Source of the DNA: an uncultured Bacteroidota bacterium
GTDB lineage: Bacteria > Bacteroidota > Bacteroidia > Flavobacteriales > Flavobacteriaceae
Direction: 5' to 3'
Assembly: GCA_902586905.1 (NCBI GenBank)
Contig: CACIJH010000005.1
Span: 19,370 to 83,369, forward strand
Length of the DNA: 64,000 nucleotides
Made by a program: the position numbers and the translations under genes. The notes beneath the pieces are model-generated. The model had not been told where the DNA came from, ran no database searches, and saw nothing but the letters and a program-made list of their open reading frames with translations. Below, one piece after another: positions 57,566 to 61,927 of the stretch (its first letter is position 1; each line of letters begins with the position of its first letter).

Positions 57566-59668
57566 ATGGCGATTTTAGGTAAAATCCGAGAAAAATCAAT
57601 CGTACTAATACTAGTTATTGGAATGGCACTATTTGCGTTTGTTATTTCAGGTGTTTTTGACGGCGCTGGAACCATCAGCCAAGAACCAGTCGCTATTGTT
57701 GGAGATGAGGAAATAACCATCGAACAGTTTAGCAGGCGCGTAGATGCTGTTGAACGAAACACAGGAATGAGCAATGTGCAAGCAGCCAATACTGTTTGGA
57801 ACCAAATTGTAACCGAATATTCGTTTAACCAATTGCAAGAGGAACTTGGTCTTGAAGTGGGTCGAAGCCATGTTGAAAATTTTATTGCCAATTCCCCTGG
57901 ATTCAGACAAGACAGCCGTTTTCAAAATGCTTTAGGAGAATTTGATATTGTTGCTTTTACTGATTTTATCAATGACAGCAAAAGAAACAATCCTGCCGTA
58001 TACAGCCAATGGCAGCTACAGGAAGAATCAATACGAAGTACCATCAGCCGACAGTTATACAACACCATGATTCAAGCTGGCATTTATCACACTTCATTTG
58101 ATGGAAAAACAGAACACAAACTCGAAAATGATAAGATTAGTATATCGTTTGTAAAAGTACCATACAGCTCTATTCCAGATAGTTTGGTAACGATTTCAGA
58201 TCGAGACATCAAAAAATACATCAATGCTAACGCAGAAGAATATGAAGTAGAAGAAAGCCGATCGATTCAGTTTGTGGTTTTTGATGAAACAGCCTCTGTC
58301 GAAGACAATTTAGAAATCGAAAACGGTCTTAAAAAATTACTCGAAGCTCAGGTCATATTCAATGAAGTTAGTCAGTCTGAAGAAACTTTGCCATCATTTT
58401 CCCAGACAGATAATGTAAAGGAGTTTATCGCCGAATATTCAGAAACTCCATATGATGAGACTTATAAAACCAGAGCCCAACTAGGGACTTATGCAAATAC
58501 ACTTTTCGACCTTAAAGAAGGTGAGGTTTTCGGACCATATAAAGATGGAAATCAGTTTAAGCTCTCTCGCATGATGGATTTCGATCGAGGAGGATCTGTG
58601 AAAGCACGTCATATATTGATTGCTTATGAAGGGTCACAGAGTGCATCTAGCGATGTGACTAGAACAAAAAACGAAGCAAGAAAAGAGGCTTATCGCGTAC
58701 TTCGTTTGGTGCGTGCCAATGGTTCTGACTTTGCCGAGCTTGCAAAAACTTACTCTGATGGGCCATCCAAAAACAGAGGTGGTGATCTTGGATTTTTTAG
58801 ACGTGGCGATATGGTTGAAGCGTTTAATGATTATGTATTTTCAAAGCCAACGGGTTCAATTGGCGTTGTTGAAACAGATTTTGGTTATCATGTGATTGAG
58901 GTACAAGAAAAAGAAGATGTAGTCTTGATTGCATCTGTTGTCAAAAAAATTGTACCATCTGAATCTACAAGCAACGAAGTTTTTCGATTGGCTACAGAAT
59001 TTGAAATAGAAAGTAAGAAAAACGGATTTTCAACTGCATCAGAGTCATTGGGATACGACTTGCGTAATGGATCCAATTTAAAGCTTATGGATGAAAGCAT
59101 TCCAGGTCTTGGTGTTCAGCGTACCATTGTGAAATGGTCTTTTGAAGAAGAAACAAGCGTGAGTGATATCAAACGATTTGACCTTCTTGGTGGTGGATAT
59201 GTTGTTGCTGAATTGATTGAAAAATCATCAGCTGGAACGTCAAGTGTAGAAGATGCAAGAAATACGGTAGAATCTAAACTAATGCAGGACAAAAAGTATG
59301 ATCTTCTCCGTTCTAGATATAGCAGTGATGTATCACTTGCAACAATCGCTGAGGATTATGGACAAAGCATTTTAACCTCATCAGCGATCAATGCAGCAGC
59401 AGGCTCAATTGCTGGTGCAGGGACAGAGCCATTTGTCGTTGGTTCAGGTTTTTCACTTGAAATGAATCAGACCTCAGCATTGATACAGGGAAAACAAGGA
59501 ATATTTATGTTAGAAGTTGATTTATTTGAAGAATCAACTGCATTGCCCTCTTACGATGGTTACTCGAGTTCGTTAAATGAAAGCGTTTTGAACCGTCTTC
59601 GACCATTGATAGACGAGGTCATTCGCGATCATTTTGAAGTGGTTGACAATAGATTCGACTATTTTTAA
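57566..59668 (+). CDS. Peptidylprolyl isomerase (PpiD/SurA-like, SurA_N + parvulin domain)
   Basis: 'MAILGKIREKSIVLILVIGMALFAFVISGVF', parvulin 'KARHILIAYEG...FAELAKTYSDGPSKNRGGDLGFFRRGDMVEAFNDYVF'. Confidence 0.95.
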   Translation: MAILGKIREKSIVLILVIGMALFAFVISGVFDGAGTISQEPVAIVGDEEITIEQFSRRVDAVERNTGMSNVQAANTVWNQIVTEYSFNQLQEELGLEVGRSHVENFIANSPGFRQDSRFQNALGEFDIVAFTDFINDSKRNNPAVYSQWQLQEESIRSTISRQLYNTMIQAGIYHTSFDGKTEHKLENDKISISFVKVPYSSIPDSLVTISDRDIKKYINANAEEYEVEESRSIQFVVFDETASVEDNLEIENGLKKLLEAQVIFNEVSQSEETLPSFSQTDNVKEFIAEYSETPYDETYKTRAQLGTYANTLFDLKEGEVFGPYKDGNQFKLSRMMDFDRGGSVKARHILIAYEGSQSASSDVTRTKNEARKEAYRVLRLVRANGSDFAELAKTYSDGPSKNRGGDLGFFRRGDMVEAFNDYVFSKPTGSIGVVETDFGYHVIEVQEKEDVVLIASVVKKIVPSESTSNEVFRLATEFEIESKKNGFSTASESLGYDLRNGSNLKLMDESIPGLGVQRTIVKWSFEEETSVSDIKRFDLLGGGYVVAELIEKSSAGTSSVEDARNTVESKLMQDKKYDLLRSRYSSDVSLATIAEDYGQSILTSSAINAAAGSIAGAGTEPFVVGSGFSLEMNQTSALIQGKQGIFMLEVDLFEESTALPSYDGYSSSLNESVLNRLRPLIDEVIRDHFEVVDNRFDYF

Positions 59669-59781
59669 GGTATTATACTACACTGAAATAAGTATTTTTT
59701 ACAGGATGTTTTTTTATAATCACTGAATTCACTTTTGTTTTTGGGTGGTGTTTTCCTCTTATTTAGCTCTTTCGGACAGCT

Positions 59782-60167
59782 GTGGATCGCATACGAAAAA
59801 AAGAACCTCTAGCCCAGCTTCCTGAAGATGGTCAGGAGGTTATTACAACCTTGCAGATTAACGACTGTTTTTTGATGGGACTTTCCGATGAAGAGTATTT
59901 TGATTTTGAAAGATTACCGAGGAGAAAAATCATGGAGCACTTGTACCGAGTGCAGAGAATTTCAACAAAGTTTTATGTGTTTAAGCAAGTATATGACGCA
60001 GATATTTACAACACTCATTCCCCAATTATATTCGAGTGTTGAATTTTGGACAGCGTAAAACAGGTTGGTTGACCTATAACCCAAAGAAAGTATATGTTGA
60101 TAACCTAGGAGGTATCAAAAAAATGAAAGAAAAATGGATACATAAACAGCCCCAAAGGCAATCATAG
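59782..60167 (+). pseudogene. cas9: Remnant of type II (II-C-like) CRISPR-associated Cas9, C-terminal fragment with one frameshift
   Basis: 'GQEVITTLQINDCFLMGLSDEEYFDFERL..KIMEHLYRVQRISTKFYVFKQVYDADIYNTHSP' in frame 1, then 'NYIRVLNFGQRKTGWLTYNPKKVYVDNLGGIKKMKEKW' one base out of frame (missing A near 60025). Confidence 0.72.
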
Positions 60168-60327
60168 ATTGATAGGAATAAGCTACCAATTTCATAAGTT
60201 TCTTGAAGTTAAAATTTATTGTGATTTGATTTTTTTAAGGTAGCAATAAACGTTTCCACGCATTAAAAAGTTCTTTTTTAAGTATAGTATTGTGATTTGA
60301 TAAGAACTTTAGATTGCCGGGGCTTTT

Positions 60328-60822
60328 TTAAAAAAACAACTCTTTGTGTTTCCAAAAAATATTGACAAATAGAACTAAATAAACCACAGCAAGGGTAAAC
60401 TTGATCATTGTCCCTGCTAAAAATCCCATCAAGGAGCCAAAGGCAGCACGAACAGCTTTTTTGAAGTCTGAATTTTGCGTTAGCTCACCAGCTAATGCTC
60501 CTATAAAAGGACCAAAAACAAGTCCAATTGGTCCAAAGAAAAATCCGATAACAAGACCAATGCCAGAACCAATGGTACCCATTCGTGTACCACCTAGTTT
60601 TTTTGTACCCCATACAGGAAGTAAAGCATCGAGTAAAAAAATGATAAGAGCGATAATGAATGTGAGTGTCAAAAAGGTTGTGTTTGATGGAACACTGTCT
60701 GTTAGATGGAGTACAAGCAAGCCCAGCCAACTGCAAACTGGCCCTGGGATGATGGGTAAAAAACTGCCTGCTACGCCCAACAATATCAGCAGACCACCAA
60801 AAATGAGTAGTGTAATGTCCAT
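60328..60822 (-). CDS. DUF456 family membrane protein
   Basis: 'LLGVAGSFLPIIPGPVCSWLGLLVL', 'GTIGSGIGLVIGFFFGPIGLVFGPFIGALAGEL'. Confidence 0.9.
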   Translation of the reverse strand: MDITLLIFGGLLILLGVAGSFLPIIPGPVCSWLGLLVLHLTDSVPSNTTFLTLTFIIALIIFLLDALLPVWGTKKLGGTRMGTIGSGIGLVIGFFFGPIGLVFGPFIGALAGELTQNSDFKKAVRAAFGSLMGFLAGTMIKFTLAVVYLVLFVNIFWKHKELFF

Positions 60823-61359: not shown

Positions 61360-61927
61360 ATGAAAGAGACAATCTCTAGCTCGAAACGCATTATCCTTGG
61401 TGTTGACCCAGGAACAACGATAATGGGGTATGGTCTTATCACAGTCAATGGAAAAAAAATAGAGCTTCTTCACATGGATGAACTGGTGATGAATTCAAAA
61501 GAAAACCACTATTTGCGTTTGCAAAAGATTTTTGAAAAGACCATCGAGATCATTGATAAATTTCACCCAGATGAAATGGCTTTGGAAGCACCCTTTTTTG
61601 GAAAAAATGTTCAGTCGATGTTGAAGTTGGGTCGTGCACAAGGGGTTGCTATGGCTGCTGGATTGTCACGAGAGTTGACAATAACCGAGTATTCCCCCAG
61701 AAAAATAAAAATGGCTATCACAGGCAATGGAAACGCCTCCAAGGAGCAGGTTGCTCGAATGCTTCAACAACTGGTGGATCTCAAAACCCTACCCAAAAAA
61801 CCTTGATGCTACAGATGGGTTGGCAGCTGCTGTCTGTCACTTTTTCAATCCTGCTCAGGAATCTGGAAAAACCTATTCCGGTTGGGGCTCCTTTGTCAAA
61901 CAAGAGGCTCATCGCATTAAAAAATAG
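61360..61927 (+). pseudogene. ruvC: Holliday junction resolvase RuvC, frameshifted at an A6 run (61795-61800)
   Basis: '[17 protein letters not shown]', '[23 protein letters not shown]'-type core in frame 1; C-term '[43 protein letters not shown]' in next frame. Confidence 0.88.

Follow-up and report, generated by a model that had tools for sequence, protein, structure and literature searches.

A Cas9 tail beside a DUF456 gene as the probable relic of an exapted, nuclease-dead locus in reduced-genome Flavobacteriaceae

Introduction

Which system did a bacterium lose when the tail is all that its chromosome retains of Cas9? The question is raised by a 64,000-nucleotide stretch of an uncultured Bacteroidota bacterium of the Flavobacteriaceae (contig CACIJH010000005.1, positions 19,370 to 83,369; hereafter the window), in which positions 59770-60167 hold a frameshifted Cas9-like C-terminus of ~130 residues, with a peptidyl-prolyl isomerase (PPIase) gene on one side and a DUF456 gene on the other. 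An initial annotation, made from the letters alone, had recognised the Cas9 relic and attributed it to the loss of a type II immune system based on clustered regularly interspaced short palindromic repeats (CRISPR). The relic is confirmed by the comparisons presented here; the lost immune system is contradicted by them. With a probability of roughly 0.6, what the window retains is the decayed tail of a nuclease-dead Cas9 locus, exapted for RNA-guided, non-cutting chromosomal binding and vertically inherited beside DUF456 in reduced-genome Flavobacteriaceae; judged from sequence, what this lineage lost would be that non-cutting locus and not an immune system.

A Cas9 C-terminus without its body

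In a per-genome search of other Flavobacteriaceae, the frame-joined relic peptide (X at the junction) aligned to the C-termini of Cas9-like open frames of ~1120-1160 aa (best E 4.6e-37, 57% identity). It also matched three syntenic loci: L022 (JAQWIL010000003.1), L021 (JAQWGQ010000038.1) and L023 (CACAZM010000002.1, isolate AG-349-I20), with an amino-acid identity of ~80% to L021 and L022. From 59770 into DUF456, the nucleotide sequence shares 80-82% identity with the 3′ ends of cas9 in two sister genomes (E 2e-173 and 4e-163). The 86-aa open reading frame (ORF) at 59782-60042 and its out-of-frame continuation, ending in a stop codon at 60165-60167, are both present as annotated, and a single-base gap relative to the relatives does separate them, although at ~60013 rather than 60025. 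Likewise, the TAG at 59764 that had been taken as the upstream limit is there, but homology begins directly 3′ of it, at the junction 59769/59770, before the start of the ORF. The joined peptide had no match of value in Pfam, NCBIfam, PADLOC or PDB; of the similarity checks proposed for it, the alignment to Cas9 C-termini therefore succeeded where a profile search on its own would have failed.

As homology to sister cas9 genes is confined to the sequence from 59770 onwards, the residues up to ~1015 were deleted together with the upstream trans-activating CRISPR RNA (tracrRNA), which was not found in the window. No cas9 (TIGR01865) or cas1 (PF01867) was detected elsewhere in this 70%-complete genome, in agreement with the initial annotation. 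In the window, an A-run also splits the ruvC gene (61360-61927; 188 aa in relatives) into a 148-aa ORF and an overlapping 66-aa ORF, suggesting either an indel error of the assembly at the homopolymer or a genuine frameshift in a core gene. With ruvC broken where relatives are intact, the assembly may hold indel errors, and the frameshift in the relic is a weak argument for decay, for which the loss of ~residues 1-1015 is the strong one.

Intact relatives in the same slot

The window's genus comprises 13 genomes (labelled G, their loci L). Most genomes compared are metagenome-assembled genomes (MAGs), and the MAGs of the genus are 58-89% complete. Three of them (G207, G204 and G203) carry an uninterrupted Cas9-like ORF of 1143-1150 aa adjoining DUF456, flanked on its other side by the PPIase gene in G207 and G203, with that gene on another contig in G204; the annotated slot between PPIase and DUF456 genes is thus occupied by an intact cas9 in sister genomes. 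The G207 locus is 100% identical to the L022 record. Other members document loss in different degrees: in-frame stops in cas9 of G206 (the L021 locus), an N-terminal fragment only in G201, C-terminal relics in G208 (the L023 locus) and the window, and a PPIase-DUF456 gap free of cas9 in G195, G202, G209 and G210.

Four further genera, represented by G169 with G357, G043, G020 and G189, also feature a Cas9-like ORF beside DUF456. Two arrangements are distinguished: clade A, with the PPIase gene on the other side of cas9 (G169, G357, G043), and clade B, with a helix-turn-helix (HTH) gene upstream and no PPIase gene there (G020, G189). Full-length matches to TIGR01865 were obtained for eight relatives (E 1e-98 to 1e-124), scoring 331-416 bits for seven relatives and 357 bits for L022 against a curated cut-off of 100 bits, and the intact relatives also match the Cas9 profile HNH_4.

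Most relics retain the C-terminus and the elements downstream of it, not the N-terminus. A different contig of G204 holds another cas9 copy that lacks its N-terminal part and probably represents strain variation; cas9 of G278 likewise looks N-terminally deleted (L043:6785-6921, the end of L115 and L114:8717-9274 cover the G204/G278 cases). Within the genus, a second conserved element is found in the gap that separates the PPIase gene from the tracrRNA gene (L062:9048-9485, + strand; the same gap in L035, L037, L036, L043 and L058). Its variable stem (for example, GATACAGACTTG...CAAGTCTGTATC) surrounds a TTTTTCATTTTTAGTTTT-like stretch that is conserved, with CTTTTTTGCCC after the stem; G210 has the element despite the lack of cas9 there.

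Loss of both nuclease sites

Alignment of nine of these Cas9-like proteins, hereafter the orphans, with seven canonical (active) Flavobacteriaceae Cas9s revealed damage to both nuclease domains. The RuvC-I Asp (D10-equivalent) is replaced by T, H, S or R, the HNH D839-equivalent by V, L or I, and the HNH N863-equivalent by K, A or Y, each in all nine orphans; the RuvC-II Glu (E762-equivalent) is lost in eight of the nine and the HNH His (H840-equivalent) in seven. The catalytic positions are kept in 7/7 active relatives (as Glu at D839), and the HNH and RuvC-I changes of L022 are visible also in an alignment to a solved Cas9. No orphan holds the full set that marks an active Cas9 endonuclease (RuvC Asp/Glu/Asp with HNH Asp/His/Asn) and, with three positions replaced in every ORF, the orphans are classed as naturally nuclease-dead Cas9s. 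Residues invariant in the active Cas9s are mostly kept in the bridge helix, HNH scaffold and C-terminal region, and least in RuvC-III. A single branch with 100/100 support divides the orphans from the canonical Cas9s (the root is not fixed by an outgroup), a topology compatible with a single origin of the orphans.

A shortened guide RNA set

Canonical relatives feature a 36-nt repeat, GTTGTGGTTTGATTAAAGATTAGAAAACACGATATT, with a period of 66 nt, and a tracrRNA upstream of cas9 on the opposite strand. A homologous tracrRNA occurs in every intact orphan locus in the same position and divergent orientation, with its anti-repeat shortened to CTTATCACAATAAGG and its three helices maintained through four compensatory pairs over 11 sequences. 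Transcription presumably starts near GCATCTTATC, a few bases 3′ of a TAnnTTTG motif in clade A except G043; TAnnTTTG is the -7 consensus of Bacteroidota promoters. Searches of Rfam returned tRNAs only, the tracrRNA belonging to no family at the gathering threshold. The canonical relative G213 has an additional tracrRNA-like copy immediately 3′ of the first (L118:5958 and 6041, +).

Downstream of cas9, clade A carries two CRISPR RNA (crRNA)-like units, each a conserved 5′ segment followed by a truncated repeat: AGTTAAAATTT with ATTGTGATTTGAT, and AAGTATAGT with ATTGTGATTTGA, the second reading GAGAATAGT with ATTGTGGTTTGAT in G043 and G278. Clade B carries one, AATAAATATAGT with GTTGTGGTTTGATTG. 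The 5′ segment, the putative guide, is conserved over 9-12 nt, and that of unit 1 is identical in three genera; sequence further 5′ is much less conserved. The orphan repeat and anti-repeat could form a stem of 9 bp, followed after a UU/UU loop by a second helix of 2-3 bp in most cases and of 5 bp in clade B, where the canonical duplex comprises 8 bp, a UU/UU loop and 16 bp; the shortened repeat matches the shortened anti-repeat, indicating that both were shortened together. Protein, RNA genes and their capacity to pair are thus all legible in the orphan loci.

Where cas9 is intact, species of the window's genus have kept the two units without change (0-1 mismatch). Among members devoid of Cas9, unit 1 is missing in G195, G202 and G209, damaged in G208 and intact in G210, and unit 2 has accumulated 1-7 mismatches in G195, G202, G209 and G210 and 10 in G208. 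Both units persist unaltered in the window (Table 1), where unit 2 is flanked by the inverted repeat AAAGTTCTT/AAGAACTTT; Cas9 may therefore have been lost there recently. Across Flavobacteriales (395 genomes), a search for the unit found an exact match only in the window; other matches had two mismatches each, most resembling repeat starts or chance.

Table 1. Features of the slot in the window and their coordinates.
Feature	Position	Strand	Remark
PpiD/SurA-like PPIase gene, 700 aa, left border of the slot	57566..59668	+	syntenic in clade A
Cas9 relic, frame 1 (contains ORF 59782-60042)	59770..60042	+	~residues 1016-1097 of an intact 1150-aa relative
Cas9 relic, frame 2, running to the ancestral stop codon	60014..60167	+	frameshift of one base at ~60013
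crRNA-like unit 1: conserved 5′ segment AGTTAAAATTT + truncated repeat ATTGTGATTTGAT	60207..60230	+	0 mismatches relative to Cas9-bearing relatives of the genus
crRNA-like unit 2: conserved 5′ segment AAGTATAGT + truncated repeat ATTGTGATTTGATAAG	60280..60304	+	0 mismatches relative to the closest relatives
DUF456 gene, 164 aa, right border of the slot	60328..60822	-	

Guides or operators?

In the mechanism proposed here, the dead Cas9 would bind the tracrRNA together with a crRNA-like unit, whose conserved 5′ segment of 9-12 nt would guide the complex to a few chromosomal sites. Occupation of these sites without cutting would block or tune transcription, much as in Cas9 repression guided by the small CRISPR/Cas-associated RNA (scaRNA) but without the option of cutting. 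In the window's species, a deletion running upstream from ~residue 1015 would have abolished this machinery. RNA binding, DNA binding, a target and regulation are the steps that we infer. At about even odds, the orphans constitute a natural, vertically inherited, fully nuclease-dead Cas9 that regulates transcription by RNA guidance in reduced-genome marine Flavobacteriaceae, using one or two fixed guides and a minimal tracrRNA; such a natural form of catalytically dead Cas9 and CRISPR interference (dCas9/CRISPRi) would have arisen once and be repeatedly lost, at times leaving an HTH-Cas9 tail fusion.

Several observations count against such a regulator. The HNH His is retained by two orphans and the RuvC-II Glu by one. 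No genomic target of the conserved 5′ segments was detected with exact seeds of 9-15 nt (15-nt in clade B, 12- and 13-nt, the 11-nt AGTTAAAATTT and the 9-nt AAGTATAGT), non-self matches being about as many as, or fewer than, those of a reversed-pattern control and nearly all within coding regions; in G207 (77% complete), the 11-nt seed was found only at its own locus. These exact searches likewise returned no shared target for scaRNA-type regulation. The negative is weak, since the genomes are incomplete, the protospacer-adjacent motif is unknown, and 6-nt guides suffice for TldR (PMC13418256). Finally, clade B genomes G100, G140 and G142 keep the unit almost unchanged without a tracrRNA and with at most a short Cas9 tail; a unit outlasting tracrRNA and most of cas9 in three genera may have a Cas9-independent role. 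As a separate outcome of the seed searches, one orthologous pair of matches in genus g170, in a coding region next to a 358-aa gene, was set aside as explained by coding conservation.

The units could accordingly be something other than guides: DNA operators, or 3′ untranslated region hairpins between convergent cas9 and DUF456, with a protein acting independently of RNA, perhaps together with the HTH partner of clade B. The absence of a detected target and the persistence of the clade B unit suit this doubtful explanation, as, to a modest extent, does the location of units within inverted repeats between convergent genes; the stems around the units are individually weak (p 0.003-0.94), and no weight is placed on them. 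It is also favoured by the HTH gene itself. The gene directly upstream of tracrRNA-cas9 in G020 and G189 encodes a protein of 130-138 aa whose LuxR/GerE-type HTH match is weak, below the Pfam cut-off. In two more genera (G142, G140), the HTH portion continues in frame into the final part of Cas9, at differing junctions that probably reflect separate deletions; a link of this partner to transcription is a natural guess. The explanation is weakened by the conserved part of each unit being exactly the repeat that pairs with the conserved anti-repeat, both shortened to match, by the retention of the tracrRNA wherever cas9 is intact, and by the decay of most units in the window's genus once Cas9 is lost. 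The HTH-Cas9 tail fusions (L064:9367-9885, -, 172 aa; L065:8714-9292, +, 192 aa) each stand adjacent to a clade B unit and lack a tracrRNA.

Selection without an immune system

The initial annotation had proposed looking for an intact cas9-cas1-cas2 cluster in the slot of sister genomes. The intact cas9 is there; cas1 is absent from all 22 orphan-bearing, relic-bearing and same-genus genomes searched with PF01867 (cas2 had no separate search), those sister genomes and G020 and G043, both 99% complete, among them, while the same profile found cas1 in 2/2 canonical controls. A scan limited to the flanks of the orphan loci found no repeat array, each locus holding one or two repeat-like units. 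With the nuclease residues also replaced, the loss of a type II immune system, as first proposed, does not stand.

Comparison of intact orphan pairs indicates that these proteins were nonetheless maintained. Synonymous differences per site (pS) are saturated at 0.76-0.81, with nonsynonymous differences per site (pN) of 0.23-0.34 inside genera, 0.40-0.41 from one genus to another, and frames of 1120-1145 codons that remain open; open ORFs with pN far below saturated pS imply that the protein was under purifying selection without its catalytic residues. For the closest pair, G207-G206, of which G206 carries stops, w = 0.13, compared with 0.06-0.11 for neighbouring genes.

These values bear on the proposal of plain decay, in which an ordinary type II-C immune system left the locus as its remnant, and relatives that look intact are pseudogenes yet to acquire stops. 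The disappearance of cas1 and the truncated or stop-bearing cas9 of G000, G201, G206, G208, G278 and G100 are as it predicts, but ~1140 neutral codons should gain many stops long before synonymous saturation, and ORFs of 40-64% amino-acid identity remain open in several genera with pN far below pS. The tracrRNA stems kept by compensatory change, and the inactivation of the same positions in all relatives, also speak against neutral decay, leaving it improbable.

Relation to known systems

The orphans share with the type II-C Cas9 of Flavobacteriaceae (active in G048, G052, G062 and G322) full-length homology, tracrRNA sequence and position, and the repeat start GTTGTGGTTTGAT; they differ in lacking catalytic residues, cas1 and an array, in their truncated repeat and anti-repeat, and in a locus fixed beside DUF456. 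Diverged repeats pairing with a tracrRNA, and a short guide, recall scaRNA/tracrRNA repression in Francisella novicida and tracr-L autoregulation in Streptococcus pyogenes, in line with the non-cutting binding proposed for the orphans; however, gene repression in Francisella is carried out by an active Cas9 (PMC8730458), and both species possess active nucleases with full CRISPR systems, unlike the orphans, whose nuclease sites are gone.

Phage-encoded Cas9s with a dead RuvC and an intact HNH domain have been described and are thought to act as anti-CRISPRs (PMC10910872, PMC12669027), prompting comparison with a decoy of phage origin that competes for host crRNAs. Such II-C2 proteins resemble the orphans in the inactivated RuvC domain, the presence of a tracrRNA and the lack of an array, but a phage decoy is a very remote prospect here: the orphans are chromosomal and vertically inherited in a fixed slot beside DUF456 across genera, their HNH site carries substitutions too, they have crRNA-like units of their own, their hosts lack the CRISPR adaptation gene cas1, and their flanks hold neither the helicase partner nor phage genes. 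An assembly or binning artefact, for which the predominance of MAGs and the homopolymer frameshift in the window's ruvC might speak, can be practically dismissed, as independent sources agree (the MAG contigs of L022 and L021, and that of isolate AG-349-I20) and several genera share the gene order.

Beyond Cas9, inactivated forms of Cas12 and of TnpB are familiar (PMC12669027, PMC13418256). Such nuclease-dead TnpB/Cas12 proteins, TldR and Cas12m among them, are likewise RNA-guided nucleases exapted as binders, for which very short guides can suffice; they belong to the TnpB/Cas12 branch, not that of IscB/Cas9, and use other forms of guide RNA, whereas the orphans match Cas9 profiles. A nuclease-dead Cas12f working with sigma factors has reportedly been found in Bacteroidota. 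Exapted RNA-guided effectors are therefore already known, and the novelty lies in the Cas9 branch. In the open-access literature searched (most subscription journals and all preprints lay outside this scope), no chromosomal Cas9 dead in both domains was found, nor any report of one that combines damage at both nuclease sites with a shortened tracrRNA of its own and fixed, conserved guides; with the literature so limited, priority is not established.

Implications

Were the proposed regulator real, engineered dCas9/CRISPRi would have a natural counterpart. The Flavobacteriaceae offer an evolutionary series, from active Cas9 through dead Cas9 with guides, frame-broken Cas9 and tail relic to empty slot, which makes the domestication of Cas9 for regulation directly testable, and they would supply Cas9 backbones without catalytic activity as well as dual guide RNAs of compact form, with a duplex of 9 bp plus 2-5 bp.
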